A stretch of DNA of 48,308 nucleotides from Candidatus Daviesbacteria bacterium GW2011_GWA1_41_61 (GTDB taxonomy: Bacteria; Patescibacteriota; Microgenomatia; Daviesbacterales; UBA10151): contig LCBT01000006.1 of assembly GCA_000997385.1 (NCBI GenBank), positions 1-48,308 on the forward strand. The letters run 5' to 3'. This document shows positions 938-23,095 of this stretch, one piece after another. Made by a program: the position numbers and the translations under genes. The notes below the pieces were generated by a model that had not been told where the DNA came from, searched no databases, and was given only the letters and a program-made list of their open reading frames with translations. Each line of letters opens with the position of its first letter. Within the stretch, counting starts at the first letter, position 1.

Positions 938-2100
938 AAAAACCCCGATTAAATCGGGGTAAAGACAAGAGTCAACTTGTCAATTCAAATGAATCTGTAG
1001 CTCGGTAACTTGTAACTCGTTTACTCGTTCATCGAGCAAGCGAGCATACGAGCCAACGAGACACAATTCTTTATTGAGAGTTTGATCCTGGCTCAGGATG
1101 AACGCTGGCGGCGTGCCTTAAGCATGCAAGTCGAACGGGCCCGCAAGGGTCAGTGGCGGACGGTTGAGTAATAGGCGGGAATCTACCTCGAAGTGGGACA
1201 TAGCCAGCCGAAAGGTTGGGTAATTTCCCATGTGATCGCAAGATCAAAGCCGCAAGGCGCTTTGAGATGAGCCTGCCTCCTATCAGCTTGTTGGTGGGGT
1301 AATGGCCTACCAAGGCAACGACGGGTAGCTGGTCTGAGAGGATGGTCAGCCAGAGTGGGACTGCGACACGGCCCACACACCTACGGGTGGCAGCAACTAG
1401 GAATCTTGGGCAATGGGCGAAAGCCTGACCCAGCGACGCCGCGTGGAGGATTGACGGCCTTCGGGTTGTAAACTCCTTTTATCTGGGAAGATTATGACGG
1501 TACCAGATGAATAAGCACCTGCTAACTACGTGCCAGAAGCCTCGGTAATACGTAGGGTGCAAGCGTTATCCGGATTTATTGGGCGTAAAGAGTAGCGTAG
1601 GCGGTCCGATGCATTTTGCTTGAAAGCCCATGGCTTAACCATGGTTTTGGGCAAAATATGATCGGACTTGAAGGTACAATAGGGTGTTGGAACCGATCGT
1701 GGAGCGGTGAAATGCGTTGATATGATCGGGAACGCCAAAGGTGTAGACAGACACCTGGTGTATTCTTGACGCTTAGGCACGAAAGCTTGGGGAGCGAAGC
1801 AGATTAGAGACCTGCGTAGTCCAAGCCGTAAACAATGTCCGCTAGTTATTGGCCTTTTTGGTCAGTGACGAAGTTAACACGTTAAGCGGACCGCCTGGGG
1901 AGTACGAGCGCAAGCTTAAAACTCAAAGGAATTGACGGGGAGGCGCACAAGCAGTGGAGCGTGTGGTTTAATTCGATACCAAGCGAAGAACCTCACCAGG
2001 GCTTGACATGCTAGAGTTCTATCCCGCCGAAAGGCGGGAAATCCGCAAGGAGGCTAGCACAGATGCTGCATGGCTGTCGTCAGCTCGTGGCGTGGGGTCT

Positions 2101-2945
2101 GAAAAAAGGCCCATCGCGCCCGTTGATAGTAATGTCAAATGGAAAATTCGGCTCATATCGGTGAATCTACTTGATATTCGGATTAGCTTCGGATATTGTA
2201 ATAAGTAGTAATACCGAGGGAAGTCGGGAAGATGATTTTCACTGCTCGTAAGAACTTAAAACTTGATGTTTCTGATAAACAAGTAGAGATCCTTATTGGT
2301 TGCTTATTAGGAGATGCTTATCTTACAAAGTTAGGCAAAATCCAAATTGAGCAGTCAGATAAGCAAGAAGAGTATATAAAATGGAAGCATCAAGAGCTAG
2401 CTTCGATAAGTTATTCCGGTTTAAAAGAGGTTGTCCGTTTTGATAAACAGGACAAACGTGTTACAAAATCCTTTCGATTTTGGACTCGACAATTCTTCAA
2501 AAGCTGGAGAGATATATTCTATCGAGGAGGTTGTAAAGTATTCCCAAAAGAGTTAAAAGAACTAATAACCCCATTAGCTATTGCTGTTTGGTATATGGAT
2601 GATGGGAGTTATGACATGAAATCTAACTATATGTTTTCAACAGAATCATTTGATTTACAAAGTCGAATAGATTTATTAAGAAAACTTGAGTTTTGGGAGG
2701 TAGAAGCAACCTTAAAAAATAGTGGCAAGTTACGAATTAGGAGTAAAAGTCTTAAAAAGTTCTTCGAGTTAGTGGGACCATATGTTCATCAAAGTATGAA
2801 ATATAAACTTCCTTGACCCTGTAACGACTGATATGGAAGGTACCAGATAATCTGGATCAAAACTTCCATTACACGCCGGACTCCGTACCGTAAAGTCGAC
2901 GGAGATGGGATAGTCTAATTTTTGCTAAATGCAAATTTGGAGCTG
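2101..2945 (+). other. Group I intron in 16S (E. coli ~1083-1087, h35/36), boundaries +/- a few nt
   Basis: Exons cgtggcgtggggtct | ...tcattaagttgagtaacgagcgcaaccc rejoin into the h35/36 region. Core-like 'aaattcggctcatatcggtgaatc', 'aataccgagggaagtcg', 'gaccctgtaacgactga' and 'gagatgggatagtcta' resemble the 23S L2449 intron. Confidence 0.85.
2232..2816 (+). CDS. LAGLIDADG homing endonuclease (two-motif, LAGLIDADG_2-like) in 16S intron 1
   Basis: Motifs 'LIGCLLGDAYL' and 'AIAVWYMDDGSYD'; intronic location. Confidence 0.92.
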   Translation: MIFTARKNLKLDVSDKQVEILIGCLLGDAYLTKLGKIQIEQSDKQEEYIKWKHQELASISYSGLKEVVRFDKQDKRVTKSFRFWTRQFFKSWRDIFYRGGCKVFPKELKELITPLAIAVWYMDDGSYDMKSNYMFSTESFDLQSRIDLLRKLEFWEVEATLKNSGKLRIRSKSLKKFFELVGPYVHQSMKYKLP

Positions 2946-3248
2946 TATCATTAAGTTGAGTAACGAGCGCAACCCTCACCGTATGTTAAATAATTCATAC
3001 GGAACTGACCCGATTTTTCGGGTAGGAAGGCGGGGATGACGTCAAGTCAGCACGGCTCTTACGCCCTGGGCAACACACACCCTACAATGGCGAATAACAA
3101 CGAGTTGCAAGCCGGTAACGGCAAGCTAATCTCTGAAATTTCGCCCCAGTTCAGATCGAGGTCTGAAACCCGACCTCGTGAAGTCGGAATTGCTAGTAAT
3201 CGCGAATCAGCAGGTCGCGGTGAATACGTTCTCGCCTCTTGTACACAC

Positions 3249-3953
3249 GTCCTATAGCATAGGAATAAATGCGCGCCTAGCAGCTTACTAAGCAAGGTGG
3301 TTTAAATCCATCCTTGTAGCTAAAAAAATTTGGCAGAGACAATTTGGTGACAGATGTCTTGGAGGGCCTGAAGCAAAAGGCAGCCTAACATTTAACAGAA
3401 GTTCGACCCCTACGGTGTGTTAGTGGGGAAGAACATTAAAAATTCTGGTTAGGATGTCTGGAATTGTTTAGTAAGTGACCTAGGGAGATCTCTTCTTGAC
3501 ATTTGGGTAATATTCGGGCTATCTTAATATTAAGATGTCCTTGAAGAAGAGAAGTCAGCTGATCCATAGTACTACGTTTAGTTATATGAATGTAGGAAGG
3601 GAGAAACCTGAAAGTTTGTCTGATGATTATATTATTGGCTTAACTGATGGAGAGGGATGTTTTTATGTCGATATTAGAGCTCCAAAAGGAGAATATAAAT
3701 CTTATCGAGTAGAACTTCATTTTTTCATTAAATTAAGGGAAGATGAGCTTTTATTATTACAAAAAGTTCAAAAATTTAAAGAACTATTTGCTATTTCGTC
3801 GAATTGCCTTAATGGTTAAAAATGGCGAACATAGAAGTAATAAAGGCTTAATAAAAATCCAGCAGATAAAGTCACAGATGAATAACAGGGCTCGCCCGGT
3901 GCGGGAAATCCGCTCGCCGGGTGGGAACTCGAAGTAACCCAAACTATCGAAAT
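3249..3953 (+). other. Second 16S insertion/intron at E. coli C1399/C1400, class uncertain
   Basis: gtacacac | gtcctatagcatagg...aactatcgaaatc | cgcccgtcac: removal restores universal GTACACACCGCCCGTCAC. Encodes a LAGLIDADG fragment. Confidence 0.85.
3535..3819 (+). pseudogene. Truncated LAGLIDADG endonuclease remnant
   Basis: 'DDYIIGLTDGEGCFYVDIR' is a clear LAGLIDADG_1 N-terminal motif, but the ORF ends at 94 aa. Coding-like sequence continues briefly in another frame (3743-3937). Confidence 0.75.
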
Positions 3954-21162: not shown

Positions 21163-21733
21163 AGCGAAGTTCCTTGTCTGGCGAGTTCAGACCCGCACGA
21201 AAGGTAGAACGACTTAGCGACTGTCTTGAGGATAGACCCGGCGAAATTGCAGTGGCTGTGAAGATGCGGCCTTCCCATACTTTGTGTAGCGTAGGAGGGA
21301 GCTTTGGCGACAATGAAACACCTCTCTTTTAATTTTTTAAGTCTCTAGCCTCGCCCGTAATCCGGGCGGGTAACAAGGTCTGGCGGGCAGTTTAACTGGG
21401 GCGGTTGCCTCCAAAAGAGTAACGGAGGCGTACAAAGGTACACTTAAGGCCAATGGTAACGGCCTTTAAAGCGCAAAAGTATAGAGTGTGCTTGACTGCG
21501 AGACCCACAAGTCGAGCAGGTGCGAAAGCAGGTTTTAGTGATCCTTAGGTGGTTCGTGGGAGCGCCTAGGCTTAACGGATAAAAGTTACCCCGGGGATAC
21601 AAATGTGTCCTGATCCTGTGGTAACATAGGATCGTAAATACGGCTAATAACGGTGGAACCCTAATGATTTAAGGTTAGAAGTCTTTCCTTACATCGAGAA
21701 ATTGTTAGGGCAATACCGTGGGAAGTCGAAGGT

Positions 21734-22381
21734 ATGACGAAAAAGCAGAAAGCGATAATTATTGGATCAATTTTAGGAGATGGTTTTTTGCAAAAAACCG
21801 GTGCTAAAAATGCTCGGTTAAGGCTGGAACACAGCCTTTTGCAGAAAGAATATTTACTTTGGAAATGTCAAATATTAGGTAATTATTTTCAATCCAAACC
21901 ACAAATCTTGGAAAGGAAAAATCCTGTTTTTGACAAAACCTATCAATATATTCGAGCCCAATCTTATTCAGGATCTGAACTAGGAATTTTTTTTCACCTT
22001 TTTTATAAAAATGGGAAAAAGATTATTCCTGAGAAGATTTCTGATCTATTAAAAGATCCGCTGATGTTGGCAGTTTGGTTTATGGATGACGGTTATTACT
22101 ATCCTAGGGATAGAATAGCCTATCTATATTTACCCAAATTAGACCAAGCATCAATTGATAATTTACTGAATGCTTTAAAAGTCAATTTTAATCTTTCTCC
22201 CATTCTAAAAATTAAGAAAAGGGGAGAGTATGTACTTAACTTTTCTGTTGTAGAAACAAAAAAGTTGGTTCAATTAATAAAATTATTTGTGATTTCTTCT
22301 ATGAGTTATAAGATTCCTTCGGAATCTTGCGACAACAGTCTAAAGATTCCTTCGGAATCTTGTAACCTTGAAGTATCCTAA
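21734..22381 (+). CDS. LAGLIDADG homing endonuclease (LAGLIDADG_2-like) in L2449 intron
   Basis: 'IIIGSILGDGFLQKTG' and 'LAVWFMDDGYYYP'. Confidence 0.92.
   Translation: MTKKQKAIIIGSILGDGFLQKTGAKNARLRLEHSLLQKEYLLWKCQILGNYFQSKPQILERKNPVFDKTYQYIRAQSYSGSELGIFFHLFYKNGKKIIPEKISDLLKDPLMLAVWFMDDGYYYPRDRIAYLYLPKLDQASIDNLLNALKVNFNLSPILKIKKRGEYVLNFSVVETKKLVQLIKLFVISSMSYKIPSESCDNSLKIPSESCNLEVS
22310..22361 (+). repeat. Two identical 19-nt hairpins AAGATTCC-TTC-GGAATCTT at the 3' end of the endonuclease ORF
   Basis: 22310-22328 and 22343-22361. Confidence 0.9.
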
Positions 22382-23095
22382 ACTACCTTTTGACCCCGTA
22401 TCGACTGAGCCCTTAAGAGAGTTTCCGTTTAAACTCCTGGGCGAGATGCAATGTTTTCTAACTTGCATAATATGCCGTACTCCCGATTTAATCGGGATGA
22501 AGATATAGTCAGCGCTCACAGTAATGTGAGAATATCGTGAACAGGCTAGTCTTACCCAACAGTCCACAAGGACGGTAAGGTTCGGCACCTCGATGTCGGC
22601 TCATCACATCCTGCGGCTGAAGAAGGTCGCAAGGGTCGGGCTGTTCGCCCGTTAAAGTGGTACGCGAGCTGGGTTCAGAGCGTCGTGAGACAGCTCGGAC
22701 TCTATCCAGTATGGGCGTTTGGATACTTGAAGGGAGTTATTTCTAGTACGAGAGGACCGAAATGAGGAAACCTCTAGTGTGCCGGTTGTCACAAAATGGC
22801 AGCGCCGGGTAGCTACGTTTCTAACTGATAAGCGCTGAAAGCATCTAAGCACGAAGCAGGCCCTAAGATTAGGTATCTTTTAAGACCCCTGGGAGACTAC
22901 CAGGTCCCGTAAGGGAATCCTGAAAGCAATTGAAGGATTGATAGGAGTGCGGTGGAAGTGCAGCAATGTATTAAGCTTACACTTACTAATGGTCATAGTT
23001 GAGATTTTTTGCTTCGTCCGACGAAGCCTTGTGCGAAGTCGGATGTTTGGCACTTCGTAAGTAGGTTGCTGTTGCTAAAAGCTATGGCGACCGAA

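Follow-up and report, generated by a model that had tools for sequence, protein, structure and literature searches.

Insertions in the rRNA genes of CPR bacteria are frequent, having been reported for 48% of the 16S and 82% of the 23S genes (PMC11270868, Tsurumaki et al. 2024). According to the main text of that report they include LAGLIDADG-bearing group I introns in 16S and 23S rRNA, among them introns at 23S position 1931, and a group II-like insertion at 16S position 1400 (16IS9) with a LAGLIDADG gene and no reverse transcriptase. Cleavage of the empty site was demonstrated there for I-ShaI from another CPR bacterium. The group IIC-LHE family rns-1396 of the Thiotrichaceae has a single-motif LAGLIDADG ORF near 16S position 1396 and a 5' terminal linker; among bacteria it was described only from Thiotrichaceae, and from one site (PMC13190283). 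The main text of PMC11270868 already documents the abundance of rRNA introns in CPR bacteria, as well as a group II intron close to 16S position 1400. The locus described here resembles these systems in its LAGLIDADG-bearing group I introns in both rRNA genes and in its group II intron near 16S position 1400.

The locus belongs to Candidatus Daviesbacteria bacterium GW2011_GWA1_41_61, a small Microgenomates-type bacterium with a genome of 1.06 Mb. The window, i.e., the whole stretch of DNA analysed (48,308 nucleotides), contains the one 16S and the one 23S rRNA gene found by a search of the whole assembly (Table 1). The mature 16S rRNA has a length of about 1460 nt. Empty sites for S1078, S1398, L1931 and L2449 were available from intron-free relatives, and at all four insertions the exons rejoin to exactly the empty-site sequence. 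Of the four introns in this sole rRNA set, three belong to group I and one to group II. The original prediction had placed four rRNA insertions at ribosomal functional centres, which the empty sites confirm. Its boundaries 20486-21162 and 21599-22539 were exact, whereas 3249-3953 was one base short and 2101-2945 is replaced by 2094-2939. Neither 2101-2945 nor a splice site moved to U2098 gives the empty site of the relatives. The junction of S1398 has an ambiguity of 1 nt; 3249-3954, between C1399 and C1400, is equivalent.

Table 1. Coordinates of rRNA genes, introns and intron parts in the window.
Feature	Position	Strand	Evidence
16S rRNA gene, two introns	1072..4083	+	Rfam RF00177; sole genome copy; exons aligned to E. 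coli rrs
Group I intron S1078 (between U1078 and G1079), 846 nt, ORF in L6	2094-2939	+	Empty site in G012, G007, G017 and others
LAGLIDADG_2 homing endonuclease of S1078, 194 aa, I-SceI-like	2232..2816	+	Pfam E = 7.5e-30; I-SceI E ~3e-9
Group II (IIC-like) intron S1398 (between A1398 and C1399), 706 nt	3248-3953	+	Empty site; D1-D4 and D5-D6 model matches
5' terminal linker, hairpin-capable	3249..3264	+	TCCTAT-AGC-ATAGGA read from sequence; precedes AUGCGCG start motif
EBS1 UGUGU in hairpin loop	3416..3420	+	Pairs with IBS1 ACACA (16S 1394-1398); matching EBS1 loops in other site classes
Decayed LAGLIDADG ORF, ends approximate	3511..3890	+	Comparison with intact G056 ORF
Domain 5: CUCGCCCGGUGCGG-GAAAU-CCGCUCGCCGGGUGGG	3891..3925	+	Covariation across 8 introns
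Domain 6, bulged A3946, 8 nt from 3' splice site	3926..3953	+	A(-8) and 3' AU end in 33/33 introns (gathered with a model containing D6 sequence)
23S rRNA gene, two introns	18510..23008	+	Rfam RF02541; sole genome copy
Group I intron L1931 (between U1931 and A1932), 677 nt	20486..21162	+	RF00028 33.2 bits, E = 3.7e-6; empty site in G010, G005
LAGLIDADG_1 homing endonuclease of L1931, single motif, 189 aa	20565..21134	+	Pfam E = 4.8e-24; LAGLIDADG endonuclease structures, best E = 4e-36
Group I intron L2449 (between U2449 and A2450, peptidyl transferase centre), 941 nt, ORF in L6	21599..22539	+	RF00028 30.7 bits, E = 2.1e-5; empty site in G010
LAGLIDADG_2 homing endonuclease of L2449, 215 aa, I-SceI / 6X1J-like	21734..22381	+	Pfam E = 3.1e-37; PDB 6x1j E = 1.7e-13; I-SceI E = 1.3e-11

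With one copy of each gene (n = 1 for 16S and for 23S) and no intron-free operon found in the assembly, the further claim that ribosome production would depend on four excisions is supported. Excision would not be essential if additional intron-free copies had been missed; metagenome assemblies can miss or collapse rRNA repeats, and the present one consists of 7 contigs. Such copies are very unlikely, given a completeness of 99.75%, the single copy found, and the usual occurrence of one copy per rRNA gene in CPR bacteria noted in the main text of PMC11270868. An organism with this one rRNA set would need four self-removing elements, from two chemically different classes of ribozymes, to make any ribosome.

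At the gathering score no intron family of Rfam was found in the window, and low-threshold scans and empty-site comparison were therefore used. The group I and group II RNA models gave matches below gathering for L1931, L2449 and S1398. Against RF00028 (gathering score 50 bits, a detection threshold and not a defining feature of group I introns) S1078 gave no match; matching to this model is probably weakened by the long ORFs in L6. In S1078, L1931 and L2449 a U closes the 5' exon, a G closes the intron, and a U-G pair is present in P1 (junctions taken from the empty sites, P1 guides read from the sequence). The guide is GCGCC at 2116-2120 in S1078 and GUCCU at 21607-21611 in L2449; P1 of L1931 has one A-C mismatch. 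Core helices P3, P4, P6 and P7 are present in S1078 and L2449 by a covarying consensus fold and in L1931 by alignment to RF00028, with P7 read by eye. P3, P4 and P6 of S1078 covary with relatives and with L2449 introns. In the consensus fold of S1078 and L2449 these shared helices have 95.7% standard pairs, compared to a mean of 83.7% and a maximum of 87.8% in shuffled controls. The two introns have a common RNA architecture and encode I-SceI-like proteins. These RNA features place S1078, L1931 and L2449 among the group I introns, and their splicing would be initiated by guanosine.

All four insertions had been predicted to be LAGLIDADG-bearing. Three ORFs are intact, with a Pfam LAGLIDADG domain and the acidic residues of the motif, whereas the ORF of S1398 is a truncated, frame-shifted remnant that retains one motif. 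The intact ORFs are under purifying selection, with dN/dS values of 0.15-0.20 for S1078 (compared to relatives), 0.16-0.29 for L1931 (where estimable) and 0.14 for L2449. The three group I introns may have spread by double-strand-break homing with these endonucleases. LSU position 2449 is also the site of the yeast mitochondrial omega intron with I-SceI. The L2449 intron shares this site and has a LAGLIDADG_2 endonuclease with significant similarity to I-SceI (Table 1), but its host is a bacterium; in site and enzyme family it is a bacterial counterpart to the classic homing intron. The L1931 intron has its site, and the possession of a LAGLIDADG_1 ORF, in common with the bacterial L1931 group I introns, and nothing notable differs from their description in the main text of PMC11270868.

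Judged by its sequence features, the insertion at S1398 is a group II (IIC-like) intron in which D5, the bulged A of D6 and EBS1 are intact. The Rfam model group-II-D1D4-1 scores 34.9 bits at 3519-3602, 0.1 bit under the gathering score of 35, and is above gathering in two relatives (38.2 bits in L113 and 35.5 bits in L106). A D5-D6 model matches at 3889-3953, the window intron itself being among the 8 introns used to build it. Domain 5 contains the CGC triad, a 2-nt bulge and a 5-nt loop; across the 8 introns, two-sided compensatory changes occur in 6 of 14 pairs and 96.4% of the cells are paired. GUGYG is absent from the very 5' end of the S1398 intron, where the linker and then the AUGCGCG motif are found instead. 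This absence does not exclude group II, because a 5' linker is reported for every member of rns-1396 as well as for other group II-LHE families (PMC13190283). The linker position holds a different hairpin in G056 and G042. Introns of the S1398 family end in AU, and Domain 6 has a 4-bp stem with compensatory changes. Certain rRNA introns of mitochondria that carry 5' linkers are reported to have lost the branch point. Such a loss is ruled out here by the A(-8) present in 33/33 introns, a conservation that is not fully independent because the R1 model that gathered the group II introns contains D6 sequence. By description, the window intron differs from rns-1396 (PMC13190283) in its site (S1398), its occurrence in Patescibacteria, the combination of linker hairpin and D6 A(-8), and its decayed ORF.

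Compared to the intact copy in G056, this ORF has a single LTDGEG motif, an internal deletion and a frameshift. A search of phage records with the S1398 insertion gave no match. The intron would formerly have spread with a LAGLIDADG endonuclease, not with a reverse transcriptase, and the gene would have decayed later; its RNA core has presumably persisted because no second 16S gene is available in the genome. Splicing would proceed via the intron's own D5/D6 core and EBS1-IBS1 pairing. With its own ORF broken, the intron could instead have lost splicing by its RNA alone and require a maturase from elsewhere, e.g., another LAGLIDADG protein, a role such proteins can serve according to the main text of PMC11270868. 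This is rather unlikely, as ORF-less or ORF-decayed members are common in the S1398 family (named-genome scan) and have intact D5, D6 and EBS1.

In the case in which some or all of the insertions were intervening sequences excised without religation, the rRNA would be left fragmented. Intervening sequences of the RNase III type are known in bacterial 23S rRNA, and the short CPR insertions are thought to include them (PMC11270868, main text). The present insertions sit in invariant catalytic segments and not at hairpin tips, and they possess ribozyme cores, obey the splice-site rules exactly and show pairing by EBS1-IBS1 or P1, which makes fragmentation extremely improbable. Each insertion is very probably a ribozyme intron, specific to its site and removed from the rRNA precursor by excision: three homing group I introns with their endonucleases, and a group IIC-like intron with a decayed ORF from a lineage that may have been retargeted among S1396, S1398 and S1402. 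Support comes from the junctions, the empty sites, the RNA signatures, the state of the ORFs and the selection on them, and the EBS1/IBS1 matching; on this basis all four introns are expected to be spliced out.

Position 1400, one site in the main text of PMC11270868, is here split into S1396, S1398 and S1402, which lie 2-4 nt from one another and have distinct EBS1 sequences. These comprise UGUGU, as in the window, together with UGUAC and GCGGU. In the set of 33 group II introns, from the window and from relatives in Patescibacteria, the EBS1 loop matches its own site in nearly every case. A strict hairpin scan found the match in 8/9 introns at S1396, 8/13 at S1398 and 9/9 at S1402, and introns that failed it have a matching word, in full or in 4/5 bases, in a looser scan. 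Two introns (L108 and L126) have the exon variant ACUCA; EBS1 is UGAGU in one and UGAG in the other. In the intron tree S1396 and S1402 each form a clade, with S1402 nested within S1398; support is only 0.58 at the node that groups S1402 with the neighbouring S1398 introns, and 0.95 at the wider S1398+S1402 node. A simple flank test left 60 of 79 loci in the named-genome scan without site assignment. No description of staggered-site retargeting was found in the literature consulted, including the main text of PMC11270868. The chances are about even that in Patescibacteria a LAGLIDADG-driven group II lineage shifted by a few bases in the 16S decoding centre, with EBS1 rewritten for each site and the sites overlapping in a single plausible target of the endonuclease. 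The insertion point would have moved from S1398 to S1402 in step with EBS1, S1396 being a separate clade. The series would then be a natural example of an endonuclease-bearing group II intron that changes site while its exon recognition is kept matched, i.e., of exon-guide retargeting without reverse transcription.

The group II identity of one insertion, its broken endonuclease gene and the routine occurrence of such introns in this bacterial group had escaped the original prediction. The pattern agrees with PMC13190283 and with the main text of PMC11270868, and several of the relatives compared here have as many rRNA introns as the window, or more.

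Joined exons free of insertions are present in relatives of strain GW2011_GWA1_41_61, as observed when the 16S and 23S regions of the window were compared by BLAST with 57 genomes, the window's own among them. Alignment of the rejoined exons to E. coli places the 16S insertions after U1078 (S1078) and after C1399 or A1398 (S1398), and the 23S insertions after U1931 (L1931) and after U2449 (L2449). The S1398 insertion can be bounded in two ways because of a one-base repeat at the junction; the A1398/C1399 junction is preferred because related introns end in AU. For S1078 no empty site was reproduced with the earlier bounds of 2101-2945, which are replaced in the table. 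Its exon and intron ends match the group I intron pattern, and its guide pairs with the GGCGU of the 5' exon. One 16S and one 23S gene, tRNAs and 5S are found in the window, and no second 16S or 23S was found elsewhere in the seven contigs of the assembly (1,055,662 bases, 99.75% complete). The four introns in the single set are real, and excision of all four is almost certainly required.

Positions of features in the window
Feature	Position	Remark
16S gene	1072-4083	one in window
S1078 intron	2094-2939	5' exon end GGCGU, intron end UUUG
S1078 guide GCGCC	2116-2120	
S1398 insertion	3248-3953 (preferred) or 3249-3954	706 nt, decoding centre
GAPDH-like gene	12942-13862	
GAPDH-like gene	15660-16574	
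23S gene	18510-23008	one in window

A set of four introns is ordinary for these bacteria; in the occupancy comparison several relatives carry at least as many as the window genome. According to PMC11270868, 48% of the 16S and 82% of the 23S genes in CPR bacteria contain insertions; many of these sites hold group I introns, and group II introns carrying LAGLIDADG occur at 16S position 1400. A site at position 1498 is likewise named there. Further 16S introns after position 1498, also in the decoding centre, were seen in relatives (loci L078, L081, L083, L085 and L089).

The S1398 insertion scores 34.9 bits with the Rfam model group-II-D1D4-1 (gathering threshold 35, exceeded in relatives L113 and L106). 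Its domain 5 is CUCGCCCGGUGCGG-GAAAU-CCGCUCGCCGGGUGGG with the triad CGC, and compensatory two-sided changes occur at 6 of 14 pairs among eight introns of the family. The bulged A of domain 6 lies 8 bases from the 3' splice site. With a covariance model of domains 5 and 6, matches were obtained in 26 of 380 genomes of the phylum and 34 of 281 of the class; the sets overlap and contain genomes used to build the model. All 33 resolvable group II introns, including that of the window, have an AU end and an A at -8, but the splice-site search itself used the AU end, and the collecting model spans this region.

More interesting than the four-intron set is the series of neighbouring 16S sites with matching EBS1. 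The 33 introns are inserted after 1396, after 1398 or after 1402 (S1396, S1398 and S1402). In a strict hairpin scan, a loop matching the intron's own exon word (IBS1) was found in 8/9, 8/13 and 9/9 introns, respectively; two introns that sit in an exon variant are left out of these counts. Few loops matched the word of another site, and two of those matches are due to overlapping words. For the introns missed by the strict scan, a matching word is present in a looser scan, with only a four-base match in L124, beside another exon variant. Next to the exon word ACUCA, intron L108 has the loop UGAGU and L126 a loop with UGAG. In the RNA tree both S1396 and S1402 form clades (support 1.0 each), and the S1402 clade lies inside S1398; the node that unites it with most of the S1398 introns has support of 0.95, the closest node 0.58. 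The LAGLIDADG tree is broadly similar, except for L154, an S1402 intron that groups with S1398 proteins, which may mean that the site classes have exchanged an ORF. Group II introns with LAGLIDADG enzymes are described with a sole bacterial family, rns-1396 of Thiotrichaceae; they have 5' linkers and have sometimes lost the branch point (PMC13190283). No account of the staggered sites was found in the literature on EBS1, 16S and Patescibacteria, as covered by the main texts of open-access papers.

In the window the S1398 ORF is reduced to its first part, which contains the motif LTDGEG, and a later stretch in a different frame. The same intron in relative G056 has an intact frame of 196 residues, and a frame of 140 residues is absent in 13 of the 33 group II introns. 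Homing endonuclease genes are known to go through a cycle of gain, decay and loss, and this pattern is consistent with it.

In a search with the Rfam group I model, L1931 (33.2 bits, E = 3.7e-6) and L2449 (30.7 bits, E = 2.1e-5) did not reach the gathering score of 50, and S1078 gave no match. Once their ORFs are taken out, ten introns from S1078 and L2449 fit one structure with P3, P4 and P6 in common; the introns of the two sites are therefore relatives. The ORFs are located in L6. Standard pairs fill 95.7% of pair cells; shuffles average 83.7% and reach at most 87.8%. Less clear-cut are the two-sided changes (16/32 pairs, shuffled maximum 15) and the pair types, which lie inside the shuffled range.

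Both the S1078 and the L2449 protein are LAGLIDADG_2 enzymes resembling I-SceI. The yeast omega intron, which encodes I-SceI, also occupies L2449. The L1931 protein is a LAGLIDADG_1 enzyme with a single motif. In the named-genome scan, relatives of the L2449 protein with L2449 flanks were found at 15 loci, nearly all in Patescibacteria; the closest named holder, the window aside, is a Candidatus Daviesbacteria. Values of dN/dS were 0.14-0.29 for the three ORFs versus relatives (pairs involving the window that could be estimated), with synonymous sites near saturation in several pairs; all three group I intron ORFs are under purifying selection. In relative G033 the L2449 intron (L105) has, in place of a LAGLIDADG gene, another ORF; its translation, read by eye, resembles a 23S rRNA intervening-sequence-type protein. 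A protein related to that of the L2449 intron also occurs in a Gemmatales MAG (L227); its gene may be positioned at S1078, according to a loose, weak flank test.

The 16S and 23S genes are separated by about 14.4 kb (4083-18510), with tRNA-Ile adjoining 16S and tRNA-Ala adjoining 23S, an arrangement that would result from splitting a 16S-Ile-Ala-23S spacer. They are also several kb apart in relatives G012, G007 and G030. The two GAPDH-like genes lie near each other and have long identical stretches in common, which suggests duplication or conversion.
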